A DNA stretch of 23,890 bases from a virus: IMG/VR virus record IMGVR_UViG_3300023175_000196, positions 1 through 23,890 of that record. One strand, given 5' to 3'. A program made the position numbers and the translations under genes. The notes beneath the pieces were generated by a model, which saw only the letters and a list, made by a program, of their open reading frames with translations, ran no database searches and was not told the origin of the DNA. Positions within the stretch are counted from its first letter, which is position 1. The number at the start of each line of letters is the position of its first letter. Shown in pieces: positions 1 through 9,018 of this stretch.

Positions 1-966
1 TTTAGCTGGTGTAATAACATCTTTATAATTTTTAACTTTTGGAAACTCAAGGTAACGATAAGGCTTACATTGTTCATCAACTAATCTACCTTCGTTATCT
101 CTGTAATTCTCATCTGTTTGGCAAGACGGTGTGAATTCTTGGTCAAATTCAGAAGCATTATCTTCTTTAACTCTATTGATAACTTGTTGTTTGGATTCAA
201 ACCAGGGGGTGTCTTCTTCACCATCATCATTATTCCCACTAGAAGCTTGACTATCGTCTTCAACTTCTTTTTTATCTTCTGCTTCAGGTTCGATTGTGTT
301 TTCATTATCTTCACTATCAAATTCATCACCATCTTCGAGTTCTTCATCATCACCTAAATTGATATCAAATGAAAGTTCGTCTTCATAATCTAATTGTTCG
401 TCTTTAGAATAATCATAAATTTCTTTTGTAACAGCAACAACATCGTCCCAACTTTCTGCAGCTTTTACTTTTTCTAAAAGTTTAGTTTCATATTCATTGA
501 AATCAACAGGCAGAACATATTGAGATTTTGTGAAAAGATTTAATCTATCGATAAAAGGAAAACTATTGATATCTCTTTTACCAATACCAAAGAAGTCTTT
601 TTTCATTAAGTCAGCATATGCTTTTTTGAATGATTGTTTAAGACCTGGATATTTTCTTTGAACACGCTTTTCAATTCTAGCGTCTTCAACCACATTTAAA
701 AAGTTTTTGTAGTTTTTACCTTTAGCTTTATCAACAACAGCATCATGCCATCCTTCTTCAGGCGTAAAGAGTGCGTGACCAACTTCGTGACCACATAATA
801 AGTCATATGTATAACCAGTCATATCAGTCCAGATTGGAAGATATAACACACGATTTTTTACATCAAATTTTGCTGTTGAGATTTTTTGGTGTTCGATTTG
901 AATATTCTCGTTTGCCATCAGTTTGGCAAGTTGAGATTTGAACTCTTTTAGATTTGTATCTGCCAT
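1..966 (-). CDS. Metallopeptidase-like phage protein with HEVGH motif (3' end outside window)
   Basis: The frame is open from an ATG at 966 to the left edge: 322 residues with no stop, so the C-terminus is missing. Residues 60-64 read HEVGH, the HExxH zinc-binding motif of gluzincin-type metallopeptidases. The following helix has E94-D95 in a VVEDARIE context, a plausible third ligand. Residues about 205-255 are an extremely acidic linker rich in D, E and S. In marine T4-like phages, proteins of this type (HExxH, acidic linker, C-terminal VWA/CobT-like domain) are found near cobS. The CobT-like half would lie outside the window, so that part is inference. The start has a weak GAGAG ribosome site about 8 bases upstream. 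The gene follows the terminator at 1008-1034 and may be controlled through it. The substrate is unknown. Confidence 0.72.
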   Translation of the reverse strand, partial: MADTNLKEFKSQLAKLMANENIQIEHQKISTAKFDVKNRVLYLPIWTDMTGYTYDLLCGHEVGHALFTPEEGWHDAVVDKAKGKNYKNFLNVVEDARIEKRVQRKYPGLKQSFKKAYADLMKKDFFGIGKRDINSFPFIDRLNLFTKSQYVLPVDFNEYETKLLEKVKAAESWDDVVAVTKEIYDYSKDEQLDYEDELSFDINLGDDEELEDGDEFDSEDNENTIEPEAEDKKEVEDDSQASSGNNDDGEEDTPWFESKQQVINRVKEDNASEFDQEFTPSCQTDENYRDNEGRLVDEQCKPYRYLEFPKVKNYKDVITPAK

Positions 967-1007
967 TTTTTCTCTCTTTTTCACTATCATATGGATAGGA
1001 TACATCA

Positions 1008-1034
1008 AAAAAGGCCTTTTGTCAAGGCCTTTTT
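1008..1034 (-). terminator. Intrinsic terminator (or attenuator) upstream of the HEVGH gene
   Basis: The arms AAAAAGGCCTT (1008-1018) and AAGGCCTTTTT (1024-1034) pair perfectly over 11 bp around a TTGTC loop. On the minus strand the hairpin ends in a run of six T. Because of the A/T flanks it could work in both directions. It lies about 110 bases after the promoter at 1145-1172 and 41 bases before the start of the peptidase-like gene, so it either ends a small RNA or attenuates that gene. Confidence 0.8.
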
Positions 1035-1065
1035 AGCATTTTTTTAGGAGAGTAAAATGAAATTT

Positions 1066-1131
1066 GGAGCGGGGTGTTGGACTTACACCAACTAACTAGA
1101 TGGGGAACCTAGTTCGATTAACTCCCCCCGC
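1066..1131 (-). ncRNA. Candidate structured RNA with cloverleaf-like fold (degenerate tRNA or leader RNA)
   Basis: On the minus strand this stretch can form a long closing stem GCGGGG/CCCCGC (1131-1126 with 1074-1069) enclosing two hairpins. The first is CTAGG-TTCCCCA-TCTAG (1112-1096, one G-T pair). The second is a perfect 5-bp stem GTTGG/CCAAC with a 7-base loop (1092-1076). The stem is followed by TCCA (1069-1066), like a tRNA discriminator base plus CCA. Read as a tRNA, the anticodon would be CCC (glycine). However, the D arm is missing, base 37 is C, the variable loop is 3 bases and the T loop TGTAAGT lacks TTC. A functional tRNA is therefore unlikely. A sigma70-type promoter just upstream and a terminator just downstream support transcription as a short RNA. 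No known riboswitch consensus was recognised. Confidence 0.45.
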
Positions 1132-1144
1132 ATTTTCAGTAACC

Positions 1145-1172
1145 ATTATACACAGATTTTTATAAAAGTCAA
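1145..1172 (-). promoter_or_regulatory. Sigma70-type promoter for the structured RNA / peptidase leader
   Basis: Minus strand: -35 TTGACT (1172-1167), 16-base spacer, perfect -10 TATAAT (1150-1145). The predicted transcript starts near 1138, seven bases before the closing stem of the structured RNA. The promoter lies between the stop of the DUF4338 gene (1188) and the RNA, so it is a fresh start site rather than part of the upstream operon. Confidence 0.7.
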
Positions 1173-1187
1173 GCATTATTTTTATTA

Positions 1188-2471
1188 TTACCGACCAACC
1201 TGTGTTAGATATTTTTCTTTAGTTTCGTCCCAAGACAAGGTAATCAAGTCATCATAGAATAAAGTCTCATTGGACACTCTTCCTTGTTCTTTCAGATTGG
1301 TTATCCTCTTGGTTGCATACTTCTCTTTCCATATATTTACAAGAGCTTCAGTTGATGTGTCAAACGATTTGACCAATTTGTCTTCTGTTATATCACCACG
1401 GAGAAACTCTGCTGTGTTATCATATAAAGGTGAGAAGTAAATACCTCTAGCGTGTTCTGAACGAATCAGTGTCTTATCTAATTTCATTTGAGAATAGGCA
1501 AACTGTAAAGACCTGTTTTTATGGTCTCGTTTATGTGGCTGACCACTTGGTTTCTTTGCAACATACCAATCAAAATATTTTCTTGTATGGTTTTTCTTTA
1601 ACCAATGATTAATTCGATATCTTGTTTTTCTTGTTGGTTCAAATGCAACCGAACCAGCTGTAAAACCCATTTTCTTCCAATGTGATAGTCTATCGTATTG
1701 TGATAGACCTCCTGTCTTTGTCTTACCGTAGAGCGATGTGGTGGTTACACCAACAAGTTTGTCGCCATATAACTCCTGCCATAATTGTTGTATCTTATCG
1801 TCTAAACATAATAAGGCTAACAATTTACCACCTGTGTAATTATAACCTAAAGGTTGGAGAGGAACAATCGTGGATCCAATTGCTGTGTGGTTAATCATTG
1901 ATCCTTGCGTTTTAAGTTCTCTACTCCAACCAATAAAGTTATCTCTTGGTGTTAAGTCTAAAAAGTCTGAGGAAATACAAATAACACCAAGATACTGTTT
2001 GGTCGGTTTATCTCTTACCACAAAATTAAGATTACGACCAATATTAGAATTGTTTTTCATTGTTGATGAGAATGTTCGTATTACATTCCAGAGTTCAGGT
2101 AAATCATCTTGCTTGTTCGCATAAATGAGTTCTGGTTCCAATTTCATGTAAGTATCTACATCAGCTGGATTCCAAATATTAGTTTTGACTTCTTGTATGG
2201 CACGGCGTTGTTTCTCATCTTCTAATACTTTAGTTTCGCCTTCCCATAAATCATTGACGGTCACAAATGGATATTTTTCTTGCACCTCACACCATTTCTG
2301 ATAGAGTGTGTATTCTTTTACATCCATTTGAGAAACAAATTCTAGGTCTTTAATGGTCTCTTGCTTAACTTCTTCAAAATCAATTTCAGGCATTTTAGCC
2401 ACAGGATTAGCATCTGACCATTTTTGCCATTGTGTTTCTACATCATCTTTTGGGTCCCAAGCGTAACTCAT
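1188..2471 (-). CDS. DUF4338 (DruA-like) family protein
   Basis: 427 residues. The segment around residues 160-290 matches the pattern I know for DUF4338, the domain of DruA from the Druantia defence system: a strand YLGVICIS, then RDNFIGWS (176-183), then conserved hydrophobic strands and a YDRLSHWKKMGF-type motif. The N-terminal ~120 residues are charged and unassigned. The biochemical role of the domain is not clear to me, and a role in defence or inter-phage competition is inference. The ATG overlaps the deformylase stop by 4 bases (ATGA), so translation is coupled to the operon starting upstream. It is the last gene before the promoter at 1145-1172. The family call rests on remembered motifs, not a search. 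Confidence 0.6.
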   Translation of the reverse strand: MSYAWDPKDDVETQWQKWSDANPVAKMPEIDFEEVKQETIKDLEFVSQMDVKEYTLYQKWCEVQEKYPFVTVNDLWEGETKVLEDEKQRRAIQEVKTNIWNPADVDTYMKLEPELIYANKQDDLPELWNVIRTFSSTMKNNSNIGRNLNFVVRDKPTKQYLGVICISSDFLDLTPRDNFIGWSRELKTQGSMINHTAIGSTIVPLQPLGYNYTGGKLLALLCLDDKIQQLWQELYGDKLVGVTTTSLYGKTKTGGLSQYDRLSHWKKMGFTAGSVAFEPTRKTRYRINHWLKKNHTRKYFDWYVAKKPSGQPHKRDHKNRSLQFAYSQMKLDKTLIRSEHARGIYFSPLYDNTAEFLRGDITEDKLVKSFDTSTEALVNIWKEKYATKRITNLKEQGRVSNETLFYDDLITLSWDETKEKYLTQVGR

Positions 2472-3058
2472 CGTTTTTTCTGTCTCTGTATTTTTTTAAT
2501 CATCTTTTGTCGTTTTTGTTCAGCCATTTTTAATGAAACTGGACCAACATGGCTTGTAAATTTAACTCCGTTCATATGGTCGAGTTCGTGTAGAAAACAT
2601 CTTGCTACCAAATCGGTGAGTGTTTCATTATGCACCTTACCCGATTCATCTGCAAATTCTACATCAATGCTTAATGGTCTTTCTATTTTAAGATATAAAC
2701 CGGGAAAAGAGAGGCAACCTTCACCACTTTTTTCCACTTCTGCCGATTCTTTAATAACTTTTGGATTGATACAAACGAGTTGTTTGTCTTCGGTGCCAAT
2801 AATAAAAACCCTTGCACGAACATTACACTGATTAGCTGACAGGCCAATGCCACCAAACTGTTTCATTGTCATTTTAAGTTGTTTGACAAGATTTGACATA
2901 GATTGATTTGGCAATTGTTTTGTATCATAATGGGGCATCACTTCTGATAACATTGGTAAAGTATCAGCATATAATGGTAACGGTTCAAGCTTGACTTCTT
3001 TTTCTGGTAATTTTACAGAATCTTCCGTGTTTATAACTAAAATATTATCTTCACTCAT
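2468..3058 (-). CDS. def: Peptide deformylase
   Basis: 196 residues with all three deformylase motifs in order: GGIGLSANQ (69-77, usual form GxGLAAxQ), EGCLS (113-117, metal-ligand C115) and HELDH (157-161, ligands H157 and H161, catalytic E158). The enzyme removes the formyl group from the N-terminal methionine of new proteins. Phage-encoded deformylases are known in marine phages and are thought to keep phage or host proteins maturing during infection. The N-terminus carries an extension of about 40 residues with no recognised function, and the C-terminus is strongly basic (about residues 175-196). The ATG overlaps the gp46 stop by 4 bases, so it is translationally coupled to the recombination genes. 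It is probably active, since all metal ligands are present. Confidence 0.95.
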   Translation of the reverse strand: MSEDNILVINTEDSVKLPEKEVKLEPLPLYADTLPMLSEVMPHYDTKQLPNQSMSNLVKQLKMTMKQFGGIGLSANQCNVRARVFIIGTEDKQLVCINPKVIKESAEVEKSGEGCLSFPGLYLKIERPLSIDVEFADESGKVHNETLTDLVARCFLHELDHMNGVKFTSHVGPVSLKMAEQKRQKMIKKIQRQKKR

Positions 3059-6729: not shown

Positions 6730-7113
6730 TTATGTCGCCAGATGAGGCTGGATCCTTCCAAGGAGGGTTAATACTCTTTTTCTATAATCAAAACCTAACA
6801 TTGATGCTTTCTGTCCTTTATTCCAAGGAGGATGCCTGTTTTGAGAGGTGTATTGGTCAGATGTTAAATCAATAATACGATTCTGATTGTCAACACACCA
6901 CCAGTGCCAAATGCCCTCATCATCTAAAGCACGATGTAGTTTTAATTCTTGTGTTCCAAATATTTTTTGTAAACAGGCAGATGCTGTATGGCAGTGACCA
7001 AACATTGGGTTGGTACTGTTGCGTTCTACCCATTTTTTAGGTAATAAATCGGGTGTTAAATTTTTTAATATTAAATTGGTTACAATTCTCAAATTATCAA
7101 TATTATATTCCAT
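6730..7113 (-). CDS. Conserved phage protein, possible papain-like Cys-His-Asp fold
   Basis: 127 residues. I do not recognise a named family. Visible features are GHCHTASACL (39-48, C41 at the start of a helix), then GIWHWW (67-72, H70), then RIIDLTSDQY (79-88, D82). This C...H...D order and spacing resembles papain-like and NlpC-type folds, where a helix-capping Cys, a strand His and a following Asp/Asn form the catalytic triad. Catalysis is inference. There are no membrane segments or signal. The start is 2 bases after the upstream stop (TAACCATG), so it is co-translated in the uvsY-uvsW operon. It is followed by a 66-base gap with the plus-strand promoter-like motif before gp55. Confidence 0.85.
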   Translation of the reverse strand: MEYNIDNLRIVTNLILKNLTPDLLPKKWVERNSTNPMFGHCHTASACLQKIFGTQELKLHRALDDEGIWHWWCVDNQNRIIDLTSDQYTSQNRHPPWNKGQKASMLGFDYRKRVLTLLGRIQPHLAT

Positions 7114-7559: not shown

Positions 7560-9018
7560 TCTTGAGTTCGATATTGTAGAACTTGTATTTGAACTTCTCT
7601 TCATCATATATTTTCATTCTTTCAATAAAATGTTTTAGTGTATAATTGGTAAATTTACCAACTCTAAAATCATCAGCGATATCAAACAAAGTCGCTACTT
7701 CTTTATTATCTCCTACTCTTAAACCTCGACCGATAGATTGAAGATTACGAATACGAGACTTACTCGGCGAGGCAAAGATAATATTATGTAAGTTCCTTAT
7801 ATTTATACCCGTAGAAAAAGTACCATATGATGCTACGATAATAGCATCTTTTTCTCTTTCAGTAATTGACCGAACAGCTTCACGAGATTCTGTATCGGTT
7901 CCACCAAAAACAAAAAATGTTTTTCTTTTTTTCGCCTTTTCTTTAATGACCTCATATAAATCTTTTCCATGTTTTTCAACAAACTGAAAAAGTATAAGAG
8001 AGTTTCCATTTAATGATAAGGCTAAGTTTCTTATAAATTCGTTTCGTGCTTTGTTTTGAACAATATAATCTATTTCAGTATTATAATCCCATTCTTTCGC
8101 TTGTTTGCAAACCGATTCTGGATATTTCAACACTAAACATTTGATTTTAAAATCCGCCAAATGTTTTTGTTCAATAAGTTCAGATGTAGTTGTTGCACGA
8201 TAAACAGGACCAAATAAACCTTCTAATACTAAGCGATGTGTTTGTGTACCGTCTAAAGTGCCTGTTGTTCCTATCCTATATTTAGCACTAGAACAACCTG
8301 ACATAATTGTTGTTAAAGACTTAGCTTTAAATTGGTGAGCTTCGTCACCTAAAACAAAATCAAACTGTTCAAAATATTCTGGAGGATTTTTATAAACAGA
8401 TTGCCAGGTTGTAATAGTGATAAAACTGTTTGTGTGTTTTTCTTTACCTGAATATTGTCTATGGCAGTATTTGTCTGAATCATAACCATACGATTTAAAA
8501 TCACTAAACATTTGTTCGACTAATGAGGTTGTTGGCACAATCATTAGTCCTTTCTTATAATCAGAGCTTTGGAGATATCTCACTATCAGGTATAGTATTA
8601 AGGACTTACCAGATGCAGTTGGAGACAGTAGGAGAACCCTTTTATTGCGAATTCCTGTGATAAAAGACTTGAGTTGGTAGTCACGGACCTTGTAAGGTAA
8701 ATTTAAAGATTCAATAAATTCTTTAGCTTCATGTACCGAAAAGCTCTCTGTTGAACTAACTTCTTTATCTATTTCAAGCTTATAATTTCTTTCTTCACAA
8801 AACTTTTGTATATAAGCTACAAGACCATGATATATGGTAAAGTTTCTCAAATCTAAAAGCCTTATCTTTCCATCCCAAGCTCGCATCTTATATGCCGGTG
8901 TGAATTGATAACCAGGCACAAAGAATGTAAAATACTCGGACATCTCTTGAGCAAAATGCCTTTCACATTCTAACTGAATATAAGATTCGTTTTGTTTATG
9001 TAGAATGATATCAGCCAT
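7552..9018 (-). CDS. uvsW: UvsW DNA/RNA helicase (SF2)
   Basis: 488 residues from the ATG at 9018, which overlaps the uvsY stop by one base (TAATG). A longer frame with 9 extra residues lacks support. The N-terminal ~100 residues match the UvsW-specific DNA-binding domain. Walker A SPTASGKS is at 132-139, and the DEAH box (225-228) is followed by motif III TGT; a C-terminal QSIGRGLR motif VI is present. T4 UvsW unwinds branched DNA and R-loops, which drives the change from origin-dependent to recombination-dependent replication, and it is the functional analogue of RecG. It sits next to its pathway partner UvsY. Confidence 0.96.
   Translation of the reverse strand: MADIILHKQNESYIQLECERHFAQEMSEYFTFFVPGYQFTPAYKMRAWDGKIRLLDLRNFTIYHGLVAYIQKFCEERNYKLEIDKEVSSTESFSVHEAKEFIESLNLPYKVRDYQLKSFITGIRNKRVLLLSPTASGKSLILYLIVRYLQSSDYKKGLMIVPTTSLVEQMFSDFKSYGYDSDKYCHRQYSGKEKHTNSFITITTWQSVYKNPPEYFEQFDFVLGDEAHQFKAKSLTTIMSGCSSAKYRIGTTGTLDGTQTHRLVLEGLFGPVYRATTTSELIEQKHLADFKIKCLVLKYPESVCKQAKEWDYNTEIDYIVQNKARNEFIRNLALSLNGNSLILFQFVEKHGKDLYEVIKEKAKKRKTFFVFGGTDTESREAVRSITEREKDAIIVASYGTFSTGINIRNLHNIIFASPSKSRIRNLQSIGRGLRVGDNKEVATLFDIADDFRVGKFTNYTLKHFIERMKIYDEEKFKYKFYNIELKNG

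Follow-up and report, generated by a model that had tools for sequence, protein, structure and literature searches.

Organization of the locus

Positions 1–3058 of the 23,890-nucleotide stretch of viral DNA analyzed here (the window) carry a compact locus on the minus strand. Its order, 5′ to 3′, is peptide deformylase, a DruA-family protein, a promoter, a 67-nt RNA, a hairpin, a second promoter-like site and a metallopeptidase (Table 1). An earlier sequence-only reading had described a sigma70-type promoter, a structured RNA with a GCGGGG/CCCCGC closing stem and a TCCA end, an 11-bp terminator and then the start of the peptidase gene, and all of these are present. The −10 element of the promoter ends 13 nt before position 1 of the RNA, and a perfect TATAAT lies no more than 30 nt from the RNA in 64 of 116 distinct homologue upstream sequences (3 in shuffled sequences). 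The series RNA, hairpin, second promoter and peptidase is also seen in homologous loci. Elsewhere in the window a YunG-like protein (PF24585, E 8e-9) is encoded at 6730–7113 on the minus strand, among T4-type core genes.

Table 1. Features of the mini tRNA-Gly locus (window coordinates)
Feature	Position	Strand	Details
HEVGH metallopeptidase gene, phrog_459, truncated at the window end	1–966	−	likely ATG at 966
Second promoter-like site, for the peptidase	997–1025	−	TTGACA-17-TATCCT, 10/12 matches
11-bp terminator-like hairpin 3′ of the RNA	1008–1034	−	scored on the + strand; T-rich on both strands
67-nt mini tRNA-Gly	1065–1131	−	sequence, homologue alignment A2, covariation
Acceptor stem	1131–1125 with 1075–1069	−	6 pairs and a G7·A66 mismatch
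D region	1124–1115	−	only 2 D-stem pairs likely in the window copy
Anticodon arm	1114–1094	−	loop UUCCCCA at 1107–1101
T arm	1092–1076	−	loop UGUAAGU
U73	1068	−	
Encoded CCA	1067–1065	−	
Sigma70-type promoter of the RNA	1145–1172	−	TTGACT-16-TATAAT, 11/12 match
427-aa DruA-family protein (PF14236), proposed RNA user	1188–2471	−	GNAT-like predicted fold
Peptide deformylase	2468–3058	−	Pfam E 3.4e-37; stop overlaps the DruA start codon

A family of mini glycine tRNAs

Arranged by structural element, the window RNA reads GCGGGGG GAGTTAATCG AACTAGG TTCCCCA TCTAGTT A GTTGG TGTAAGT CCAAC ACCCCGC T CCA. ARAGORN finds no tRNA in the whole window, and Rfam gives no family at gathering score, tRNA and tmRNA included, the permissive matches being far below their gathering scores; the sequence-only reading had recognized no known riboswitch or phage RNA motif. 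Folded alone, the window RNA is moderately better than shuffled versions of itself (z −1.85, with 7 of 200 shuffles as good), and an alternative fold is slightly more stable, by about 3 kcal/mol. The structure given for the window copy therefore rests on comparison with its family, several members of which have the expected four- or three-arm form as their minimum-energy fold.

Homologues were collected with peptidase relatives as the starting point and with two DNA patterns. This gave 219 loci with an RNA of 60–70 nt, and 89 distinct sequences (63–70 nt) were compiled; the 67-nt RNA is a member of this large tRNA-Gly-derived family in aquatic T4-like phages. The family is known here from metagenomic viral contigs only. 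BLASTN of three members against known phages returned no copy, and one pattern scan of bacterial genomes for the 63-nt class found nothing. Two classes can be told apart. Class A RNAs (67–70 nt) have T-loops of the TGYRAAT type, and their anticodon stem is usually 7 bp long and carries a 7-nt loop; class B RNAs (mostly 63 nt) have the T-loop TTTAACT and a 4-nt CCCC or CCCA anticodon loop. A few members of 67–68 nt that adjoin DruA have AGCAAAG-like T-loops. We also note that two different mini tRNA-Gly genes, often of different subclasses, can stand in tandem a few nt apart after DruA (L249, L250, L252–L255, L258, L260, L261, L264, L266, L267 and L302).

Compensatory changes, which had been proposed as a check, are abundant. 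Among 40 homologues both-sided changes occur at 14 of 19 pairs, and the covariation score of 0.489 compares with 0.149 ± 0.012 in shuffles, none of 500 of which reaches it; in the 63-nt subfamily (class B) both-sided changes occur at 10 of 21 pairs. Strong covariation is found in all three long helices, the acceptor, anticodon and T stems. The T stem is 98.5% paired and the acceptor stem 88.6%, with a recurrent mismatch at 6-67 or 7-66. The D arm, previously described as gone, is reduced to a micro-arm, usually of 3 bp with a loop of 3–5 nt, and 80 of the 89 sequences have a D-stem of 3 bp, formed by one or another of several pairings; in the window copy only two pairs are likely.

Glycine identity is kept and decoding features are lost

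Six elements, G1-C72, C2-G71, G3-C70, U73, C35 and C36, are invariant in all 40 RNAs of alignment A2, and these are the identity set of bacterial glycyl-tRNA synthetase (PMC3990555, PMC9976931). The invariant positions thus include the whole published glycine identity set; the encoded CCA end is likewise invariant, and the acceptor end is the most conserved part of the RNA. The mini RNA resembles bacterial tRNA-Gly (UCC/CCC) in its GCGG...CCGC acceptor, U73, encoded CCA and C35/C36, and in its 7-bp acceptor, 5-bp T stem and 7-nt T-loop. It differs in the small D arm, the T-loop, the acceptor mismatches and an anticodon arm with either a 7-bp stem or a 4-nt loop, and ARAGORN misses it.

The features of a decoding tRNA are missing or variable. 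No standard D arm with G18 G19 is found in the family, the D-loop being short, and the T-loops UUUAACU, UGCGAAU, UGCAAAU and UGUAAGU do not fit UUCRANY; the last of these is that of the window copy and had correctly been called non-canonical. A 7-nt anticodon loop with U33 is present in the window copy (UUCCCCA) but absent from most of the family: 24 of 34 class A RNAs have G33, and in class B the anticodon loop is cut to 4 nt in 39 of 45. An ordinary tRNA-Gly is encoded by some of the same phages as well, in two cases 7 nt away (as at L324). At L438, where a large array of tRNA genes includes a tRNA-Gly(GCC), the mini RNA comes straight after a tRNA-Gly(UCC). Together, the lost features and the co-encoded ordinary tRNAs argue for a role outside codon reading. 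Both the existence of the RNA family and its non-decoding nature are well supported.

With glycine identity but no features for translation, the phage RNAs show the pattern of a non-proteinogenic tRNA. In Staphylococcus aureus, non-proteinogenic tRNA-Gly species escape EF-Tu (PMC9976931). Those RNAs, donors for the FemXAB peptidoglycan bridges, keep glycine identity as the phage RNAs do and share a GUGC-type T-loop with class A, with EF-Tu avoidance presumed; they are full-length, whereas a micro D-arm marks the phage RNAs, whose link is with DruA rather than with Fem transferases. Truncated D-arms are also known from mitochondrial tRNAs that have lost all or part of an arm; those tRNAs decode, whereas the mini RNAs are encoded by phages and their anticodon loops are altered. 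A search of an open-access library found no description of a phage family of D-arm-reduced, non-decoding tRNAs, and such genes fall in a blind spot of ARAGORN and Rfam.

The DruA-family protein

The 427-aa protein belongs to the DruA family (Pfam PF14236, E 1.4e-20; PADLOC DruA, E 1.1e-15). It matches by profile the DruA of Druantia type I and the DruA-like phage proteins (PF14236, phrog_19197), and differs from Druantia in sitting between a peptide deformylase and a mini RNA. None of the solved structures matches it by sequence. The predicted structure (pLDDT 83) matches mainly GNAT-superfamily folds in Foldseek, individually weakly (best E 3e-3), TacT among them. The GNAT fold is used by known aminoacyl-tRNA-dependent transferases. 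Of 89 loci checked, 85 have a deformylase gene ahead of DruA, no more than 100 nt from it in 63, and this adjacency is kept also in contigs where the RNA lies elsewhere. No description of a biochemical activity of DruA, or of a link of DruA to tRNA, was found in the open-access library searched, and a scan of bacterial genomes with the DruA protein found nothing.

An automatic name on a cyanophage homologue would have made the protein a Mom-type DNA-modification enzyme. We rejected this candidate; there is no sequence-profile similarity to Mu Mom (hhalign probability 0.2%), and the Mom-named cyanophage protein is a DruA by Pfam. Some of these phages (contigs G005, G008–G013, G023, G052, G062 and G081) have a further DruA-like gene elsewhere in the genome, whose shorter product of about 370 aa is close in size to the phrog_19197 proteins of cyanophages.

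Co-occurrence of the RNA and DruA

A DruA relative lies within 4 kb in 179 of the 219 RNA loci (not de-duplicated) and usually ends 20–140 nt upstream of the RNA. Of 58 distinct loci found by the DruA protein alone, 51 have the CCGCTCCA end of the RNA no more than 330 nt away, and 3 are wholly without it. Among 31 peptidase-selected contigs of at least 28 kb, seven have both RNA and DruA, 24 have neither and none has one alone (Fisher's test, 4e-7, a value that overstates independence because the contigs are related, so that the co-occurrence is partly shared ancestry). Seven contigs (17–56 kb) in which the RNA stands behind other genes all encode a full-length DruA, 7–9 kb away, and in one further contig the RNA is in a tRNA array and DruA is 13 kb away; the contigs with a relocated RNA in which no DruA was detected are mostly short.

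One phage (L311) has a canonical tRNA-Gly(UCC) behind DruA, where the mini RNA would be, and this too speaks for the link. Against it, cyanophages with the shorter DruA paralogue have ordinary tRNA-Gly only, and no mini RNA was found near DruA at a few loci, L290/L292, L312 and L307, where the contigs are short. At L290, L292 and L312 the position before the peptidase is filled instead by a small ORF, which has a promoter-like site to itself.

Proposed role and alternatives

The best explanation, to which we would give about an even chance, is that the RNA is a dedicated non-ribosomal glycyl-tRNA that feeds a DruA-type transferase. The transcript of the small phage gene would be trimmed like a tRNA, and because the full bacterial GlyRS identity set is present, the host glycyl-tRNA synthetase would be expected to load it with glycine. 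Its small D-arm, its changed T-loop and anticodon loop and its acceptor mismatches would keep the charged RNA off EF-Tu and the ribosome, and the glycyl-RNA would then be the glycine donor for the 427-aa GNAT-fold DruA protein, probably co-translated with the deformylase. DruA would move the glycine onto a non-ribosomal acceptor, for which protein N-termini and DNA bases are candidates. Since deformylase frees protein N-termini, N-terminal glycine addition is one testable idea, but either target reaction, this or DNA modification, is speculation. The complete system, in which a mini glycyl-tRNA and a deformylase-coupled DruA-type GNAT transferase place glycine on protein N-termini or DNA, is correspondingly a tentative and rather doubtful proposal. 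If the proposal is right, these phages keep a tRNA for a non-translation job and with a named partner protein, DruA-type proteins gain a concrete donor molecule to test, and the mini RNA is a natural minimal tRNA in which glycylation is uncoupled from decoding; by extension, the DruA of the Druantia defence system might also be an aminoacyl-tRNA-dependent enzyme.

The main rival is that the RNA is a decoy or stand-in for tRNA-Gly, soaking up host toxins or nucleases that attack it, or that DruA itself is an enzyme of this kind, buffered by the RNA. Candidate toxins are GNAT toxins that acetylate Gly-tRNA and toxSAS such as FaRel2, a reader of the acceptor stem. The specificity of TacT is set by U73 and G71 (PMC9976931), and FaRel2 picks out tRNA-Gly through its acceptor stem (PMC11559606). 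The marks of both are kept in the mini RNA, which is most conserved at the acceptor end that such toxins read, and TacT is among the fold matches of DruA. Yet a decoy does not need DruA, and the two are found strictly together; nor do acceptor-stem readers need the anticodon C's, which are invariant. We consider the decoy unlikely. That the RNA is a shrunken but functional tRNA decoding glycine codons, comparable to the mitochondrial tRNAs with reduced arms, seems less likely still: it would account for the kept glycine identity and NCC anticodon, and some members, including the window copy, do have U33 and a 7-nt loop, but most lack U33 or have a 4-nt loop, and several of the phages encode an ordinary tRNA-Gly as well.

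The two readings offered from the sequence at the outset fare differently. That the RNA is an attenuating leader or a riboswitch controlling the peptidase was suggested by the succession of promoter, structured RNA, terminator and gene. It is now very improbable: the terminator is followed by a promoter-like site belonging to the peptidase, the RNA ends in an invariant tRNA CCA, and in relatives the RNA has no fixed leader position but occurs apart from the peptidase, within a tRNA array or behind other genes. The other, a stand-alone and possibly decayed tRNA, was right as to a stand-alone, tRNA-derived RNA. Decay itself, that is, a functionless gene carried along by synteny, could explain why ARAGORN misses the RNA, but we find it scarcely credible, the least probable of the readings: the RNA is not decayed because its helices, all of them if the alignment is right, covary and its identity elements are invariant, and it is kept when moved to other places.

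Other tRNA-Gly genes

The relatedness of their DruA to that of pelagiphages suggests, but does not prove, that these phages have SAR11-like hosts. The two cultured pelagiphages with the long DruA, HTVC008M (L034:7963–8036) and Mosig (L329, record 7779–7852), each carry, away from DruA, a full-length gene similar to tRNA-Gly, in which the anticodon is ACC and the T-loop non-canonical (AGCGTTA, GGCAGTA). Between DruA and the peptidase, two pelagiphages have a common stretch (L034:4085–4145 and L035:4505–4565) with AGTAGAACA and a CTGTGCGANNTGACGCA hairpin-like motif, which recalls the class A D- and T-arms and is without an acceptor stem.

Finally, the T-loop pattern also picked up tRNA-Gly genes of 74–75 nt in L075 (four copies), L087, L054 and L072, which look similar to the staphylococcal cell-wall tRNA-Gly. 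Full-length (74–75 nt) tRNA-Gly with a GUGC-type T-loop also occur in viral contigs L043, L085, L092, L095, L099 and L108, and these are possibly further non-translational tRNA-Gly.
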